Positions 4,829 to 45,986 of a stretch of 64,000 bases of DNA are shown one piece after another; positions within the stretch are counted from its first letter, which is position 1, and each line of letters opens with the position of its first letter. The notes below the pieces were generated by a model. That model saw nothing but the letters and a program-made list of their open reading frames with translations, was not told where the DNA came from and did no database searches. Source of the stretch: Silicimonas algicola (GTDB lineage Bacteria; Pseudomonadota; Alphaproteobacteria; Rhodobacterales; Rhodobacteraceae). The translations under genes and the position numbers were made by a program. The stretch spans positions 304,001 to 368,000 of the forward strand of contig NZ_QGGV01000001.1 in the NCBI RefSeq assembly GCF_003148765.1, given 5' to 3'.

Positions 4829-4844
4829 GAGGCCCGCAGGCCTC
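4829..4844 (-). terminator. Possible terminator hairpin at the end of topA
   Basis: GAGGCC (4829-4834) and GGCCTC (4839-4844) pair across a 4-nt loop, overlapping the topA stop codon. The stem is GC-rich, but no T-run follows on the minus strand, so this is only a weak candidate. Confidence 0.25.
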
Positions 4845-7377
4845 AACCCGCCGCTTTCTTCTTCCGCGGTGCGGCCTTCTTCTTGCCGCCGCCCTTGTCC
4901 TCACGCTCGGCGATCAGCTTCACGGCGAGGTCCATGTCGACCGCTTGCGGATCGGTTTCCTTGGGAAGCGTGGCGTTGACCTTGCCCCATTTTACATAGG
5001 GCCCATACCGCCCGCTCATCACCTGAACGATGCCGCCCTTTTCGGGGTGTTCGCCCAGTTCTGCCAAGGGGGGCACTGCCGCGCCGCGACCGCCGCGCGA
5101 GGCGACTTTCTTCGCCAGTTCCTCGACCGCGCGGTTCATCCCGATGGAGAAGACCTCGTCGACCTCGGGGAGGTTCGCGTAGAGCTTGCCGTGCTTGACG
5201 TAGGGTCCATAGCGCCCGATCCCGGCCTCGATCATCTCGCCGTCTTCGGGGTGGGGGCCGACCTCGCGCGGGAGCGACAGGAGCATCAGCGCCTTCTCGA
5301 GGTCGATGCCGGCCGCGTCCCAACCCTTGGGCAGGCTTGCGCGCGGCGGTTTCGGCTGCTCGTCGGTGACCTTCCCGCGCTGGACGTAGGGGCCGAAGCG
5401 GCCCTTCATCACGCGGATCTCGTCGTCGCCGTCCATGCCGAGGAGCTTGCCGTCCGGCCCGATCTCGTCGCCGTCGTCCATGCCCGGAGGGCCGAAGGGT
5501 CGGGTGTAGCGGCACTCGGGGTAGTTCGAGCATCCGATGAAGGCCCCGCCCGAACGTGCGGTGCGCATCGACAGGCGGCCCTGTCCGCAATTCGGACAGA
5601 GGCGCGGGTCGCTGCCGTCGGCGGTGGGCGGGAAGAGGTGGGGTTCCAGCACCTCGTTGATCTTCTCGAGGACGTCGGTGATCCGAAGCTCGGCCGTCTC
5701 TTCGACCGCCGCCTTGAAGTCGCGCCAGAAGCGGGCCAGCACCTCGGTCCATTGTCGGCTGCCGGCGGTGATGTCGTCGAGTTCCTCTTCGAGGTTGGCG
5801 GTGAATTCGTAGCCGACGTACTTGCGGAAGTAGTTCGACAGGAAGGCCGTCACGAGCCGCCCCTTGTCCTCGGGGATGAGGCGGTTCTTGTCCTTCCGGA
5901 CATAGCCCCGCTCCTGGATGGTGGTGACGATCGAGGCGTAGGTCGAGGGACGGCCGATGCCGATCTCCTCCATCTTCTTCACGAGCGTCGCCTCGGTGTA
6001 GCGTGGCGGCGGCTGGGTGAAATGCTGCTCGGGCGTGATGGATTTCTTTGCGGCCGTCTCGCCCTGCATGATCTGGGGCAGGACCTTGTCGTCGCCGTCC
6101 TCCGGTTCGTCACGGCCTTCCTCGTAGATCTTGAGGAAGCCGTCGAAGAGGACGACCTGGCCCGTCGCCCGCAGCTCGACCTGCTGGTCGGCGCTGGCGA
6201 TGTCGACCGTTGTCCGCTCGAGCCGCGCGGCTTCCATCTGGCTGGAGAGCGTCCGCTTCCAGATCAGGTCGTAGAGCTTGCGCTGGTCGCCGTCGGTCAA
6301 CTTGAGCGCGGCGGCATCCGCCGTCATCTCGGTCGGGCGGATACACTCGTGCGCTTCCTGCGCGTTCTTGGCCTTGTTCTTGTACATGCGCGGGCTGTCG
6401 GGGACATAGGCTGCGCCATAGCGCGCCTTGATCGCGTCGCGCGCCGCCATGACCGCCTCGGGCGCCATGTCGATGCCGTCGGTCCGCATGTAGGTGATAT
6501 GGCCTGCTTCATAGAGCCGCTGCGCTGCGTTCATCGTCTGGCGCGCGCCGAAGCCGAACTTGCGGCTTGCCTCCTGCTGAAGCGTCGAGGTCATGAAGGG
6601 GGCGGAGGGGTTGCGGCTGGCGGGCTTGGCCTCGACCGACTTGACCGTCAGGTCGCGCGACGTGATGGCCTGCACGGCCATTTCCGCAGCGGTTGCGTTG
6701 GCGATGTCGAAACGGTCGAGCTTCTTGCCGCCGAGGACGGTCAGGCGCGCCTCGAACTCCTGTCCCCGGGGCGTCGCGAGAAGGGCGGTGACGCTCCAGT
6801 ATTCGCGGGCCTGGAAGGCCTCGATCTCCATCTCGCGCTCGACGATGATCCGGAGGCAGACCGACTGCACGCGTCCCGCCGAGCGTGCGCCCGGAAGCTT
6901 GCGCCAGAGAACGGGCGAGAGGTTGAAGCCGACGAGATAGTCGAGCGCCCGGCGCGCGAGGTAGGCGTCGACGAGATCCTTGTCGACCTGGCGCGGGTTC
7001 TTCATCGCCTCGGTGACGGCGGTCTTGGTGATGGCGTTGAACACGACTCGGCTGACGGGCGTGTCCTTCTTCAGCGCCTTGCGGTTCCTCAGCGTCTCTT
7101 CCAGGTGCCACGAGATCGCCTCGCCCTCGCGGTCGGGGTCGGTGGCGAGGATCAGGGAGGGGTCGTCCTTCAGCGCGTCGGCGATGGCCTTGATGTGCTT
7201 CTTCGAGTCGGCGGCGACCTCCCAGGTCATCTCGAAACCCTGGTCGGGATCGACCGAACCGTCCTTCGCGGGCAGGTCGCGGACGTGACCATAGCTCGCC
7301 AGCACCGTGTAGTCCTTGCCGAGGTACTTGTTGATGGTCTTCGCCTTGGCGGGGGACTCGACGACGACAACGGGCAT
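4843..7377 (-). CDS. topA: DNA topoisomerase I
   Basis: 844 residues, the normal alphaproteobacterial size. It relaxes negative supercoils by transient cleavage of one strand. The open frame extends far upstream, but the protein starts at MPVVVVESPAKAKTINKYLG, the canonical Toprim beginning, with AAAGGACC as ribosome site. The Toprim DxD is in LATDPDREGEAISWHL (about 90-105). The catalytic tyrosine is in HITYMRTDG (about residue 296). One four-Cys zinc finger starts at LCPNCGQGRLS (about 594). Three C-terminal repeats with a GRFGPYV/GRYGPYVK core follow, then a lysine-rich tail. dprA lies just upstream on the same strand. Confidence 0.97.
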   Translation of the reverse strand: MPVVVVESPAKAKTINKYLGKDYTVLASYGHVRDLPAKDGSVDPDQGFEMTWEVAADSKKHIKAIADALKDDPSLILATDPDREGEAISWHLEETLRNRKALKKDTPVSRVVFNAITKTAVTEAMKNPRQVDKDLVDAYLARRALDYLVGFNLSPVLWRKLPGARSAGRVQSVCLRIIVEREMEIEAFQAREYWSVTALLATPRGQEFEARLTVLGGKKLDRFDIANATAAEMAVQAITSRDLTVKSVEAKPASRNPSAPFMTSTLQQEASRKFGFGARQTMNAAQRLYEAGHITYMRTDGIDMAPEAVMAARDAIKARYGAAYVPDSPRMYKNKAKNAQEAHECIRPTEMTADAAALKLTDGDQRKLYDLIWKRTLSSQMEAARLERTTVDIASADQQVELRATGQVVLFDGFLKIYEEGRDEPEDGDDKVLPQIMQGETAAKKSITPEQHFTQPPPRYTEATLVKKMEEIGIGRPSTYASIVTTIQERGYVRKDKNRLIPEDKGRLVTAFLSNYFRKYVGYEFTANLEEELDDITAGSRQWTEVLARFWRDFKAAVEETAELRITDVLEKINEVLEPHLFPPTADGSDPRLCPNCGQGRLSMRTARSGGAFIGCSNYPECRYTRPFGPPGMDDGDEIGPDGKLLGMDGDDEIRVMKGRFGPYVQRGKVTDEQPKPPRASLPKGWDAAGIDLEKALMLLSLPREVGPHPEDGEMIEAGIGRYGPYVKHGKLYANLPEVDEVFSIGMNRAVEELAKKVASRGGRGAAVPPLAELGEHPEKGGIVQVMSGRYGPYVKWGKVNATLPKETDPQAVDMDLAVKLIAEREDKGGGKKKAAPRKKKAAG

Positions 7378-7484: not shown

Positions 7485-8626
7485 CTACGAGACGCGGACG
7501 AGGAGACCGCCGGGCTCGCGGCGGACGCGACCTTCGAGTTCGAGCGTCACGATCTCGGGCGAGACGCTTCGGGCGGGGGCCTTGAGGTCGCGGATGAGCT
7601 GGTCCTCGGCGACCGGACTGGGGCCGAGGCGGTCGAGGATTCGCTGGTGGAGGTCGAGCGTTTCGCGCGTCACGGTGGCAGGTCGAGGTGAAGGGACGGC
7701 TAGCGTTTCGGAGGTCTCGAAGCCAGTGTCGGAGGCGATTTCGAGCGCGTCGAGCACGTCCTTCGCCGAGCGCACCAGCGTCGCCCCGTCGCGGATCAGC
7801 ATGTTGCAGCCCGAGGCGCGGGGGTCGAAGGGGTGGCCGGGGACCGCGAAGACGTCGCGGCCCTGGTCGAGCGCGGTGCGGCGGTGATGAGGCTGCCGGA
7901 CTTGGCTGCCGCTTCGACCACGATGACCGCGCGGGCGAGGCCCGAGACGATGCGGTTGCGGCGCGGAAAGTGGCGGGCCTGGGCGACGAGGGACATCGGG
8001 CTTTCGCTGATCCTGAGGCCCTTGTCCTGGATTTCCTGCCCCAGAACGGCGTTCTCGGCCGGGTAGACGACGTCGACGCCGCCCGCCATGACGGCGACGG
8101 TCCCGGTGTCAAGCGCGGCGAGGTGGGCGGCGGTGTCGATCCCGCGGGCGAGGCCCGAAACGACGACGTGTCCGGCCGCGCCGAGGTCAGTGGCGAGCCT
8201 GCGCGCCATGCGGGTGCCGACGGACGAGGCGTTGCGCGCGCCGACGAGGGCGATCATGGGACGCTGGAGAAGGGAGGGATCCCCGATGCACCACAGGATC
8301 GGCGGCGGATCGGGGATTTCGCCGAGGAGGGCGGGATAGGCGTCGCTGCCGAAGGCGATCGGCGTGGCGCCGGCCTGGAGGGCGGCCTGCCATTCGGCGC
8401 GGACCGCCTTCATATCGCAGGGGCGGTAGTCGGGCACTCCCGCCGTGGCGGCGACCGAGGGCAGGACCTCGAGCGCCCGGGCGGCGCTGCCGTGTTCGTC
8501 CATGAGGCGGAAGAAGGTGGTCACGCCGACGCGGCGTGATCGCAAGAGACGGAGCCAGTCTAGCCACACTTCCTCAGTGAGGGGTGGGGTGAGAGGGTGG
8601 GTGGAAGGGGATAAATCCTTGGCCAT
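7485..8626 (-). pseudogene. dprA: dprA, DNA-processing protein A, interrupted by a 1-nt frameshift
   Basis: DprA loads RecA onto incoming single-stranded DNA during transformation. Start MAKDLSPSTH (8626) has GGAGACAGG as ribosome site. The Rossmann-like core is clear: VALVGARNASSVG-type strand near residue 125, SGLARGIDTAAHLAAL near 158, GGVDVVYPAEN, then FPRRNRIVSGLA. After AAKSGSLITA (about residue 248) the frame is lost: the expected RTALDQGRDVFAVPG continues in the other frame. The gene reads GCCGCACC where GCCCGCACC is expected, so one C is missing (near 7880-7881). The second frame then continues intact through the C-terminal winged-helix-like domain to 7485. Restoring one base gives 380 residues. 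It is either a real inactivation or an assembly indel. A CtrA-type site lies 44 nt upstream. Confidence 0.9.
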
Positions 8627-8670: not shown

Positions 8671-8685
8671 TTAACAGCGTATTAA
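8671..8685 (-). promoter_or_regulatory. CtrA-type binding site upstream of dprA
   Basis: On the minus strand the sequence is TTAA-TACGCTG-TTAAC, an exact match to the CtrA consensus TTAA-N7-TTAAC. Its proximal edge is 44 nt from the dprA ATG. CtrA is known to control competence and gene-transfer genes in Rhodobacterales. The only other full match I found in the window precedes comM at almost the same distance. Confidence 0.7.
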
Positions 8686-16014: not shown

Positions 16015-16842
16015 ATGGCGCATGAAAAGAACCACGACTATCACATCCTGCCGCCCTCGATCTGGCCCTTCGCGGGCGCGCTCAGCGGTTTCACGATGCT
16101 GCTCGGTTTCGTCCTGGCCTTCGGCGAAAGGACACCGGAAAGCATCAAGCAGCCCTACGTCTTCATCGTCGGCACAGTCGGCGTCCTCTACGTCATGTAT
16201 GCCTGGTGGTCCGAGGTGGTTCACGAGTCGAACGTGGGCGACCATACGCCCGTCGTCCGCCTTGGGCTGCGCTACGGCTTCATCATGTTCATCATGTCCG
16301 AGGTCATGTTCTTCTCGGCCTGGTTCTGGGCGTTCTTCAAGAACGCGATCTACCCGATGGACCCGGACGGCATGAGCCCGATCGTCGACGGCGTCTGGCC
16401 GCCTGTCGGGATCGAGACCTTCGATCCCTGGCACCTGCCGCTGATCAACACGCTGATCCTGCTCTGTTCGGGGGCCGCCTGCACCTGGGCGCACCACGCG
16501 CTGGCGCACGAGAACAACCGCAAGGACACGGCGACCGGCCTGATCGTCGCCGTTCTCCTCGGCCTGATCTTCACGGTCTTCCAGGCCTATGAGTACAGCC
16601 ACGCGGCCTTCGGGTTCTCGGGCAACATCTACGGCGCGACCTTCTTCATGGCGACGGGCTTCCACGGCTTCCACGTCATCATCGGGACCATTTTCCTCTT
16701 CGTGTGCTACCTGCGCCTGCGCGCCGGTCACTTCACGCCGGAGAAGCACGTCGGCTTCGAGGCGGCGGCCTGGTACTGGCACTTCGTCGACGTGGTCTGG
16801 CTGTTCCTCTTCGCAGCCGTCTACATCTGGGGCGGAGCGTAA
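16015..16842 (+). CDS. ctaE: Cytochrome c oxidase subunit III
   Basis: 275 residues with seven predicted membrane helices. The N-terminal [19 protein letters not shown] and the conserved [17 protein letters not shown] (about residues 97-113) identify the subunit, as does the C-terminal [20 protein letters not shown]. Subunit III stabilises the oxidase during turnover. A strong intrinsic terminator follows at 16868, so this is the end of the main cta transcript; surf1 lies after it. Confidence 0.97.
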
Positions 16843-43652: not shown

Positions 43653-44450
43653 TTGGCCTGTCGCATCTTCCTGCACGGCCCGCGTCACGACGAGCGCAAG
43701 ATCGACCTCGGTGGCGTGCCCGCCCTGGAGATCCTCCCAAGGCGAGTGACCGGCGAGGGTGTCATCCTCTTTCTTCACGGCGGGGGCTATGTGGCCGGCA
43801 GCCCCCGCACGCATCGGGCGATGATGGCGCGTCTCGCGGACCTCAGCGGGCGGCGTGTCCTGATGCCGGACTACCGTCTCGCGCCCGAGCATCGTTTTCC
43901 GGCGGCCTTCGATGATGCGCTGCGCGCGGCACGCGCTCTCAGCGGCACGCCCTGGGTCATCGGCGGCGATAGCGCGGGCGGCGGCCTCGCCCTCGCCGTG
44001 CGCGCTGCCCTCGACCCCGACGACGCGCCGCGTGGCGCGTTCGCCTTTTCACCCTGGACGGATCTCACACTGACGGGGCAGTCGCTCGGTGCAAACGCGG
44101 AGCGGGACTGTCTACTTCCGGCCGACCGGGCGGGCGAGCTTGTCAACCTGGTGCTGGCGGACGCCGACCCCTCGGACCCTCGGGTATCGCCCCTCTTCGC
44201 GCAGGCGGGCCTTGGGACGCCTGTGCTCCTTCAGGTCAGCGATACCGAGATTCTGCGTGACGACACGATGCGCCTGGCCGACCGTCTGCGCGAGGCGGGG
44301 ACGGACGTGACGGTTGAGACATGGCCGGACGCGCCGCATGTCTGGCAGATGCTCGATGGCTGGGTGCCGGAAGCGCGCGAGGCGCTGCGGCACGTCGCGG
44401 CCTTCGTCGAGACCCGGCTCAGCCTGCCGCGCTCGGGATCCGGAAGCTGA
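43653..44450 (+). CDS. Alpha/beta hydrolase (HSL family), N-terminus probably frameshifted
   Basis: The open part codes for 265 residues of a hormone-sensitive-lipase-type esterase. The oxyanion motif LFLHGGGYVAGSPRTH (about residues 40-55), the PDYRLAPEHRFPAAFDDA motif and the nucleophile GGDSAGGGLA (about 109-118) are intact; the Asp and His lie in SDTEILRDD and DAPHVWQM. This frame starts only with TTG. Just upstream, 43558-43611 in another frame codes for SLRLAILNRVLRRVVLSWI, the usual N-terminal helix of such enzymes, so one nucleotide seems to be missing near 43612-43622. The original gene would begin near 43516-43541, overlapping gshB. The 3' end overlaps comM by 32 nt. Confidence 0.75.
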   Translation: MACRIFLHGPRHDERKIDLGGVPALEILPRRVTGEGVILFLHGGGYVAGSPRTHRAMMARLADLSGRRVLMPDYRLAPEHRFPAAFDDALRAARALSGTPWVIGGDSAGGGLALAVRAALDPDDAPRGAFAFSPWTDLTLTGQSLGANAERDCLLPADRAGELVNLVLADADPSDPRVSPLFAQAGLGTPVLLQVSDTEILRDDTMRLADRLREAGTDVTVETWPDAPHVWQMLDGWVPEAREALRHVAAFVETRLSLPRSGSGS

Positions 44451-45930
44451 TCGCCTCGGCCACGTGAGGTTTGCGGACGTCGTCGCTGCCGTCGAGGTCC
44501 GCGATGGTCCGGGCGACGCGGATCACGCGATGATAGCCCCGCGCCGAAAGGCCCACCCGCTCGGCCGCCGTCAGCAGGAGGGCGCGCCCCTCGGCGTCGG
44601 GTGTCGCGACAGCTTCGAGCAGCGTTCCCTCGGCATCGGCGTTGACGGTGACCTCGGGATGATCCGCGAAGCGCCGGGCCTGGGCCGTCCGTGCCGCGGC
44701 GACCCGGCGCGCGATCGCGGCCGAAGGCTCGCCGTCGGCGGGCAGGTCGAGATCCTGGAACGACACGGGCGGTACATCGACCCTGAGATCGAAACGGTCC
44801 ATCAGCGGCCCCGAGATCCGTCCCATGTAATCCTCGCCACAGTTCGGCGCGCGGTTGCAGGCACGGGCGGCGTCCGCGAGGTGACCGCACTTGCACGGGT
44901 TCGCCGCGGCGATCAGCAGGAAGCGGCAAGGGTATCGCACATGCGCGTTGGCGCGGGCGACCACGACGTCGCCTGTTTCGATCGGCTGGCGCAGCGTTTC
45001 GAGCACGCCTCGGGTATACTCCGGGAACTCATCCATGAAGAGGACGCCGTTGTGGGCGAGGCTGATCTCCCCCGGCTTGGCGCCCTTTCCACCGCCGACG
45101 ATGGCTGCCATCGACGCGGTGTGGTGCGGCGCGCGGAAGGGCCGGCGTCGCGAGATGCCGCCGTCCTCGATCAGCCCTGCAAGTGAATGCACCATGGAGG
45201 TCTGGAGCGCCTCTTCGGGGCTGAGATCGGGCAGGATGCCGGGGAGACGCGCCGCGAGCATCGACTTGCCGGAGCCGGGCGGTCCGACGAGCAGCATGTG
45301 GTGGCGCCCGGCGGCGGCGATTTCCAGGGCACGCTTCGCCCGCTCCTGCCCCTTCACCTCCGAGAGGTCGCGACCGGAGTGATGCGCCGAGACTTCGCCG
45401 GGCACGCTGATGTCGATCGGTCGCGCGCCCGTCAGGTGCTGAATGGCCGCGCCCAGATCGCGCGGCGCCACAACAGGCGTATCGCCGACCCAGGCCGCCT
45501 CGGCACCCGAAGCCTCGGGGCAGAGCAGGCTGCGCCCGGCTTCCGCCGCCGCAAGCGCCGCGGGAAGTGCCCCCGCCACGGGGACCAGCATCCCGTCGAG
45601 CGATAACTCTCCAAGTGACACCAGCCCCTCTACCGCGTCGGGAGGCAGGATCCCGATGGCGGCCAGAAGAGCGAGCGCAATGGGAAGATCGAAATGCGAC
45701 CCTTCTTTCGGCAAGTCGGCCGGCGAGAGGTTTATGGTGATCCGCCTGGGCGGAAGCGCGATCGAGAGCGTGTTGAGAGCAGCGCGCACGCGCTCCTTCG
45801 CCTCGCTGACGGCCTTGTCGGGCAGACCGACCAGCGAGAAATGCGGAACCCCTGGCGACAGGGCGCATTGAACCTGCACCAGCCGGGCGTCGATGCCTTC
45901 GAAGGCGACGGTGTAGGTTTGGGCGATCAT
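44419..45930 (-). CDS. comM: YifB family Mg-chelatase-like AAA ATPase (ComM)
   Basis: 503 residues. ComM is a DNA helicase that drives branch migration of taken-up DNA during natural transformation. Start MIAQTYTVAFEGIDARLVQV is the family beginning. The N-terminal domain contains HFSLVGLPDKAVSEAKERVR. The AAA module has Walker A LVGPPGSGKSMLAARL (about residues 218-233), and the C-terminal Mg-chelatase domain includes RYPCRFLLIAAANPCKCGHL. A CtrA-type site lies 41 nt upstream. dprA, another uptake gene with the same site, is far away at 8.6 kb. Confidence 0.94.
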   Translation of the reverse strand: MIAQTYTVAFEGIDARLVQVQCALSPGVPHFSLVGLPDKAVSEAKERVRAALNTLSIALPPRRITINLSPADLPKEGSHFDLPIALALLAAIGILPPDAVEGLVSLGELSLDGMLVPVAGALPAALAAAEAGRSLLCPEASGAEAAWVGDTPVVAPRDLGAAIQHLTGARPIDISVPGEVSAHHSGRDLSEVKGQERAKRALEIAAAGRHHMLLVGPPGSGKSMLAARLPGILPDLSPEEALQTSMVHSLAGLIEDGGISRRRPFRAPHHTASMAAIVGGGKGAKPGEISLAHNGVLFMDEFPEYTRGVLETLRQPIETGDVVVARANAHVRYPCRFLLIAAANPCKCGHLADAARACNRAPNCGEDYMGRISGPLMDRFDLRVDVPPVSFQDLDLPADGEPSAAIARRVAAARTAQARRFADHPEVTVNADAEGTLLEAVATPDAEGRALLLTAAERVGLSARGYHRVIRVARTIADLDGSDDVRKPHVAEAISFRIPSAAG

Positions 45931-45971: not shown

Positions 45972-45986
45972 TTAAGGCTGGATTAA
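45972..45986 (-). promoter_or_regulatory. CtrA-type binding site upstream of comM
   Basis: TTAA-GGCTGGA-TTAA on the plus strand; in gene orientation TTAA-TCCAGCC-TTAAC, an exact consensus match. The proximal edge is 41 nt from the comM ATG, nearly the same as the 44 nt seen at dprA. This suggests both promoters are built the same way and switched on by phosphorylated CtrA. Confidence 0.7.

Follow-up and report, generated by a model that had tools for sequence, protein, structure and literature searches.

The window analyzed here, a stretch of 64,000 nucleotides from one contig of the genome of the marine bacterium Silicimonas algicola, carries in two pieces dprA, whose product assists in integrating incoming DNA into the chromosome, and the locus raises the question of whether this strain has lost DprA or whether its draft sequence is simply one base off. 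In the assembly, the gene (minus strand, 8626 to 7485) is split by a frame slip of one base right after the motif GSLITA. The first open reading frame starts with an ATG at 8626, ends with a TGA at 7798-7796 and comprises, besides the N-terminal helical domain (DprA_N), the greater part of the Rossmann domain; the second part is open from RTALDQGRDVFAVPG to a stop at 7487-7485. The coordinates of these and all further features are compiled in Table 1.

Table 1. Positions of the dprA pieces, neighboring genes and candidate regulatory features in the window
Feature	Position	Strand	Remarks
dprA, first frame	7796..8626	-	276-aa ORF, composed of 249 genuine DprA residues and 27 out-of-frame residues
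dprA, remainder in the neighboring frame	7485..7880	-	last part of the Rossmann domain, then the winged-helix domain
One-base frame switch, just past GSLITA	7877..7882	-	compared with 107 other loci
ATGCTGA, in which the ATG of the downstream ORF (105 aa) overlaps the upstream stop	7796..7802	-	possible reinitiation site
C-rich stretch of ~45 nt within dprA codons 1 to ~20	8560..8609	-	nucleotide-level conservation across Rhodobacteraceae
TTAA-N7-TTAA, putative CtrA-type site	8671..8685	.	~45 bp ahead of the dprA start codon
topA, downstream of dprA	4843..7377	-	intact, 844 aa
comM	44419..45930	-	open; start 45930 assigned in this analysis, ORF extends to 46125
Second TTAA-N7-TTAA site	45972..45986	.	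~42 bp ahead of the comM start assigned here

The two reading frames of dprA

A preliminary description of the window had proposed that the core of dprA is divided between two frames, and both profile and structure matches bear this out. The first part covers positions 6-175 of the PF02481 model and the second covers 175-211, so that the frames abut at position 175, and with DprA_N lying before and DprA_WH behind PF02481 all three domains follow in the expected order across the two frames. Among solved structures, the PDB entries 3maj and 3uqz are the nearest relatives that both parts match, and 3maj is the best of them; the N part matches it through GSLITA and the C part from 3maj residue 256 onward. 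Since this handover between the frames of one conserved gene occurs without a gap, it does not represent a chance pattern of open reading frames. The switch had been suspected near plus-strand position 7880-7881, which agrees with the site at about 7877-7882 located here.

When scored separately against the NCBIfam dprA model TIGR00732, the two parts reach 172.7 and 33.7 bits, both below the cut-off of 191.15, and the one continuous frame above this cut-off by which DprA membership is judged was not found. A profile search of the whole genome returned the two pieces as its sole PF02481 matches. If the base is real, a complete DprA cannot be made from the only copy found in the genome.

Whether it stems from mutation or from error, the damage is of a known kind, and dprA is an ordinary pseudogene candidate. 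It combines what is expected of a recent pseudogene, namely a sole copy, intact counterparts in relatives, one disabling change and an otherwise conserved sequence. In our view, the single dprA of the strain has probably been inactivated by a recent mutation, consisting of the one-base slip after GSLITA. The mRNA would then yield a 276-aa protein in which the last section of the Rossmann domain and the winged helix are missing, and this truncated product should be inactive. A functional DprA binds ssDNA and loads RecA; in the strain, imported single-stranded DNA would not be passed efficiently to RecA, and transformation or GTA-type acquisition would be lost or strongly reduced, with comEC, comM and recA remaining.

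The break site was compared with 110 other loci (L003-L112), composed of a set of 30 and of the best 80 out of 184, in which a genome may occur twice. The closest named dprA locus among these best 80 of the 184 listed belongs to a Silicimonas metagenome-assembled genome and shows 73% identity. Alignment of the relatives' DprA, which had been suggested as a check, revealed that the best matches of both halves fall in one frame at all 110 homologous loci. A motif-anchored reading worked in 107 of the 110 (L031, L064 and L107 are without the anchor pattern), and in 106 of these 107 the frame is open across the switch site. The one exception, locus L036 from a metagenome-assembled Boseongicola, has a TGA (L036:1388-1390) at the very codon where the frame of the window slips. 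This shared codon is taken as a coincidence because the other dprA breaks found in this study sit elsewhere. Given how few broken dprA genes there are, the shared position is notable as an observation in its own right.

The L036 stop also bears on the idea that programmed frameshifting or another form of recoding yields a full-length DprA, for which a TGA at the same codon in a relative and a stop-free overlap of the two frames of at least 84 nt could be cited. However, the change in L036 is a nonsense codon and not a shift, and none of the 110 other loci has its halves in different frames, which means that the shift is not conserved. Slippery heptamers have the form X-XXY-YYZ, and no such heptamer was seen when the junction was read by eye. 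Recoding is therefore regarded as very improbable.

Equally hard to credit is coupled reinitiation at the ATG that overlaps the upstream stop, by which two polypeptides would jointly do part of the job of DprA. The start/stop overlap ATGCTGA and the winged helix contained in the 105-aa downstream open reading frame are in line with such a mechanism. Nevertheless, neither product would contain the residues from RTALDQ through SGCN, among them VFAVPG, and the same methionine is found in L036 (GCNMLIRDG), which argues that it did not arise for reinitiation.

Mutation or assembly error

A more serious rival to a genuine mutation is a base-call or assembly error, in which case dprA would be intact in the strain and the draft one base off in a G+C-rich stretch. 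Small indels are a common type of assembly error, and the G+C content amounts to 65.7% in the window and 63.9% in a 448 kb sample of the genome. Against an error speak the absence of a long homopolymer at the switch site and the quality of the assembly, which comprises 4,337,735 bp in 29 contigs at 100% completeness and 0.14% contamination. Strain KC90B of S. algicola is described with a single chromosome of 4,351,658 bp and 65.2% G+C, and for this strain a complete assembly (CP034588.1, PacBio plus Illumina, stated QV 60) and reads (SRR8529664, SRR8529665) are reported (PMC6395867). A search for RepC gave no match, as expected of a genome that has no RepABC plasmids.

The general level of frame errors was estimated by a homology scan of 448 kb of contig 1 against the open reading frames (≥100 codons) taken from 2.0 Mb of a related genome, G003. 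Matches at E < 1e-20 cover 171,705 bases of the contig, of which 38,595 fall within the window, and include ten places at which one G003 frame matches two frames. Only at dprA do both halves stand largely unchallenged, with better matches covering 0 and 9% of the length. At two further places one half is not outscored: the switch at window position 16015 was discarded, as its first half overlaps a better match of the neighboring gene in another frame, and so was the one at contig position 428362, whose first half is a shadow of a plus-strand gene; at the other seven, both sides are outscored by better matches. A codon-periodicity HMM applied to bases 1-448000 of contig 1 was abandoned in favor of the homology scan, as it called the N part of dprA an opposite-strand shadow and thus missed the known case. 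Accordingly, no second supported frame switch was detected in the ~172 kb with homology, a count that concerns frame switches and not in-frame stops, and by the rule of three zero further switches are still compatible with up to ~1.7 per 100 kb. This speaks against a generally error-ridden draft, in which isolated errors are still possible.

How often dprA breaks elsewhere was assessed in the family, where 374 of 394 genomes have a PF02481 match. Twenty-five genomes were picked for a second look by their summary lines, which showed weak or double matches or, in one case, no match. Five of them (G022, G138, G165, G200 and G267) carry adjoining dprA pieces on one contig in different frames; G165 is a single-contig genome, G022 is 85% complete in 390 contigs, and dprA of G200 has more than one frame change. 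Together with the source genome, this gives at least 6 broken dprA genes among the 374 family genomes, a minimum that misses breaks near the domain ends, in the winged helix or in genomes outside those 25. With dprA fragmented at different positions in five further genomes, one of them the single-contig G165, the gene seems to have been lost repeatedly in the family.

As a control, recA was treated in a similar way. It is matched in 383 of the 394 genomes, and among the cases followed up to 3 of the 383 have a break within a contig: in G143 (L270) and G161 (L272) the parts adjoin in one contig as judged by coordinates, and in G346 (L269) they lie ~376 bp apart. These figures stem from the inspection of ten weak or split cases, leaving out double matches with a full-strength best hit; the other seven of the ten show contact with a contig end or a single match. 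The gap between 6/374 and 3/383 is too small to prove that the dprA breaks are mostly real, and the occurrence of recA breaks keeps assembly error a serious rival, to which a considerable part of the 6 dprA cases could be due.

The age of the damage was approached by trees of each dprA half from the window and 79 relatives. The terminal branch of the N half measures 0.17 (median 0.121, rank 30 of 80) and that of the C half 0.293 (median 0.201, rank 23 of 80), with root-to-tip ranks of 62 and 32, respectively. Both branches are somewhat above the median and well within the range of the relatives, and the halves are thus about as diverged as those of intact genes. Clear decay is not apparent, which makes the break either young or artefactual. 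Taken together, an error of the draft is a real possibility, although we doubt it and continue to favor a genuine mutation. Should it be an error after all, the locus would serve as a caution against inferring gene loss from one draft.

A conserved stretch near the 5′ end of dprA

More unusual than the break itself is a C-rich stretch within the beginning of the gene, which recurs at the dprA starts of many of the loci L011-L112 and is conserved at synonymous sites across Rhodobacteraceae. In a codon-usage test on 79 aligned sequences, a set free of pattern-based selection, the conserved residues 8, 10, 11, 14, 15 and 18 are each encoded by one codon in 90-100% of the sequences, compared to a mean of 0.52 on the same measure for conserved residues of four- or six-fold degeneracy downstream of codon 40. 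This synonymous signal is confined to codons ~8-19 and 28, and a comparison of the first 40 codons with the rest gave only p = 0.053 (Mann-Whitney). In 67 sequences, conservation at third positions within the block is 0.83, close to the values for first (0.87) and second (0.88) positions, and drops to 0.53 further on; these sequences were selected for at most three mismatches to an 18-nt pattern, which biases the 18 core positions and leaves the flanks unaffected.

The 18-nt pattern occurs near the dprA start with at most one mismatch in 73 of 107 loci, in 54 of them exactly, and its best match elsewhere in the same loci has two or more mismatches every time. Part of this match is plain C-richness, since the reversed pattern is also found within two mismatches at the same place in exactly matching loci, among the rows listed. 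A 20-nt core is predicted to be unpaired in the mRNA (about 0.9), compared with 0.3-0.4 for its flanks.

Several kinds of known element were considered and dismissed. With up to three mismatches the pattern has a single occurrence in the source genome, and a second 13-nt complement of the stretch was not found in 448 kb, which rules against both a repetition of the element and a complementary site at another place. A G-quadruplex motif on the template strand is present in the window and in 20 of the 86 loci that carry the pattern with at most three mismatches, and so is not the common denominator. RNAalifold gave no consensus structure for the sense strand and a weak one (-2.7 kcal/mol) for the other, contrary to a conserved hairpin, and the two Rfam matches obtained were weak and far below the gathering scores. 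A literature search found no report on dprA together with a small RNA in Rhodobacter.

It is quite possible, and put forward here tentatively, that the ~45-nt element is selected at the nucleotide level and, as our guess, controls competence and GTA reception through the RNA. It could, for example, be the target of a small RNA or a protein. The element is intact despite the broken frame, and this would imply either that the break is very young or that the element has a role apart from the protein. Independently of the break, the stretch is a candidate for the control of DNA reception across a whole bacterial family.

Competence genes and comparison with known systems

Upstream of dprA lies a TTAA-N7-TTAA motif, which we take to be a CtrA-type site. 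Among the selected sequences, window included, the full motif precedes dprA in 6 of 67 and the half-site TTAAC in 66 of 67, and the full site was accordingly rejected as a general feature of dprA. The only two TTAA-N7-TTAA sites of the window both precede competence genes, namely dprA and comM. The preliminary view that the upstream promoter and comM are kept is consistent with the site found before dprA and with the open frame of comM (568 aa); likewise, comEC has an open frame of 688 aa, and recA of the source genome gives a single full-strength match. In Dinoroseobacter shibae, the com genes are reported to be under the control of CtrA and dprA and recA under that of LexA (PMC6473078), and the same article cites work on CtrA control over the competence proteins of R. 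capsulatus.

For R. capsulatus it is reported that ComEC, ComF and ComM import DNA, that DprA and RecA integrate it and that the acquisition of GTA-delivered DNA requires DprA (PMC10883770). It had been proposed that the loss of DprA, if real, would block DNA uptake and perhaps GTA transfer in the strain studied here. The frame disruption in the sole dprA found is supported, and the consequence for GTA transfer is weakened because an HK97-type capsid (PF05065) was not found in the whole source genome; in control searches, this profile matched 4 of 14 genomes including Caulobacter vibrioides, in three of them above the cut-off. Judged by PF05065 alone, this suggests that the source genome may lack an RcGTA-like cluster. 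Our literature search found neither a link between S. algicola and a gene transfer agent nor a demonstration that the source organism is transformable. If the mutation is real, the strain would be a natural dprA mutant that has kept its other competence genes and CtrA-type sites, possibly without a GTA capsid gene, and could represent a lineage abandoning DNA exchange.

Compared to the DprA/Smf family (PF02481, DprA_N PF21102, DprA_WH PF17782), dprA of the window shares all domains with continuous profile positions, but the break at model position 175 cuts through its Rossmann domain, and the locus does not encode a complete protein. The broken dprA genes of G022, G138, G165, G200 and G267 resemble it in having their pieces side by side in different frames and differ in the position of the break, whereas in L036 a stop at the codon of the slip lies between the pieces. 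A parallel outside the family is offered by pneumococci, in which comYC or comEC is reported to be naturally disrupted by a prophage or transposon (PMC12637031). There, too, one competence gene is lost and others are kept; the disruption is due to a mobile element, in contrast to dprA of the window, which shows a one-base slip and no inserted mobile element.
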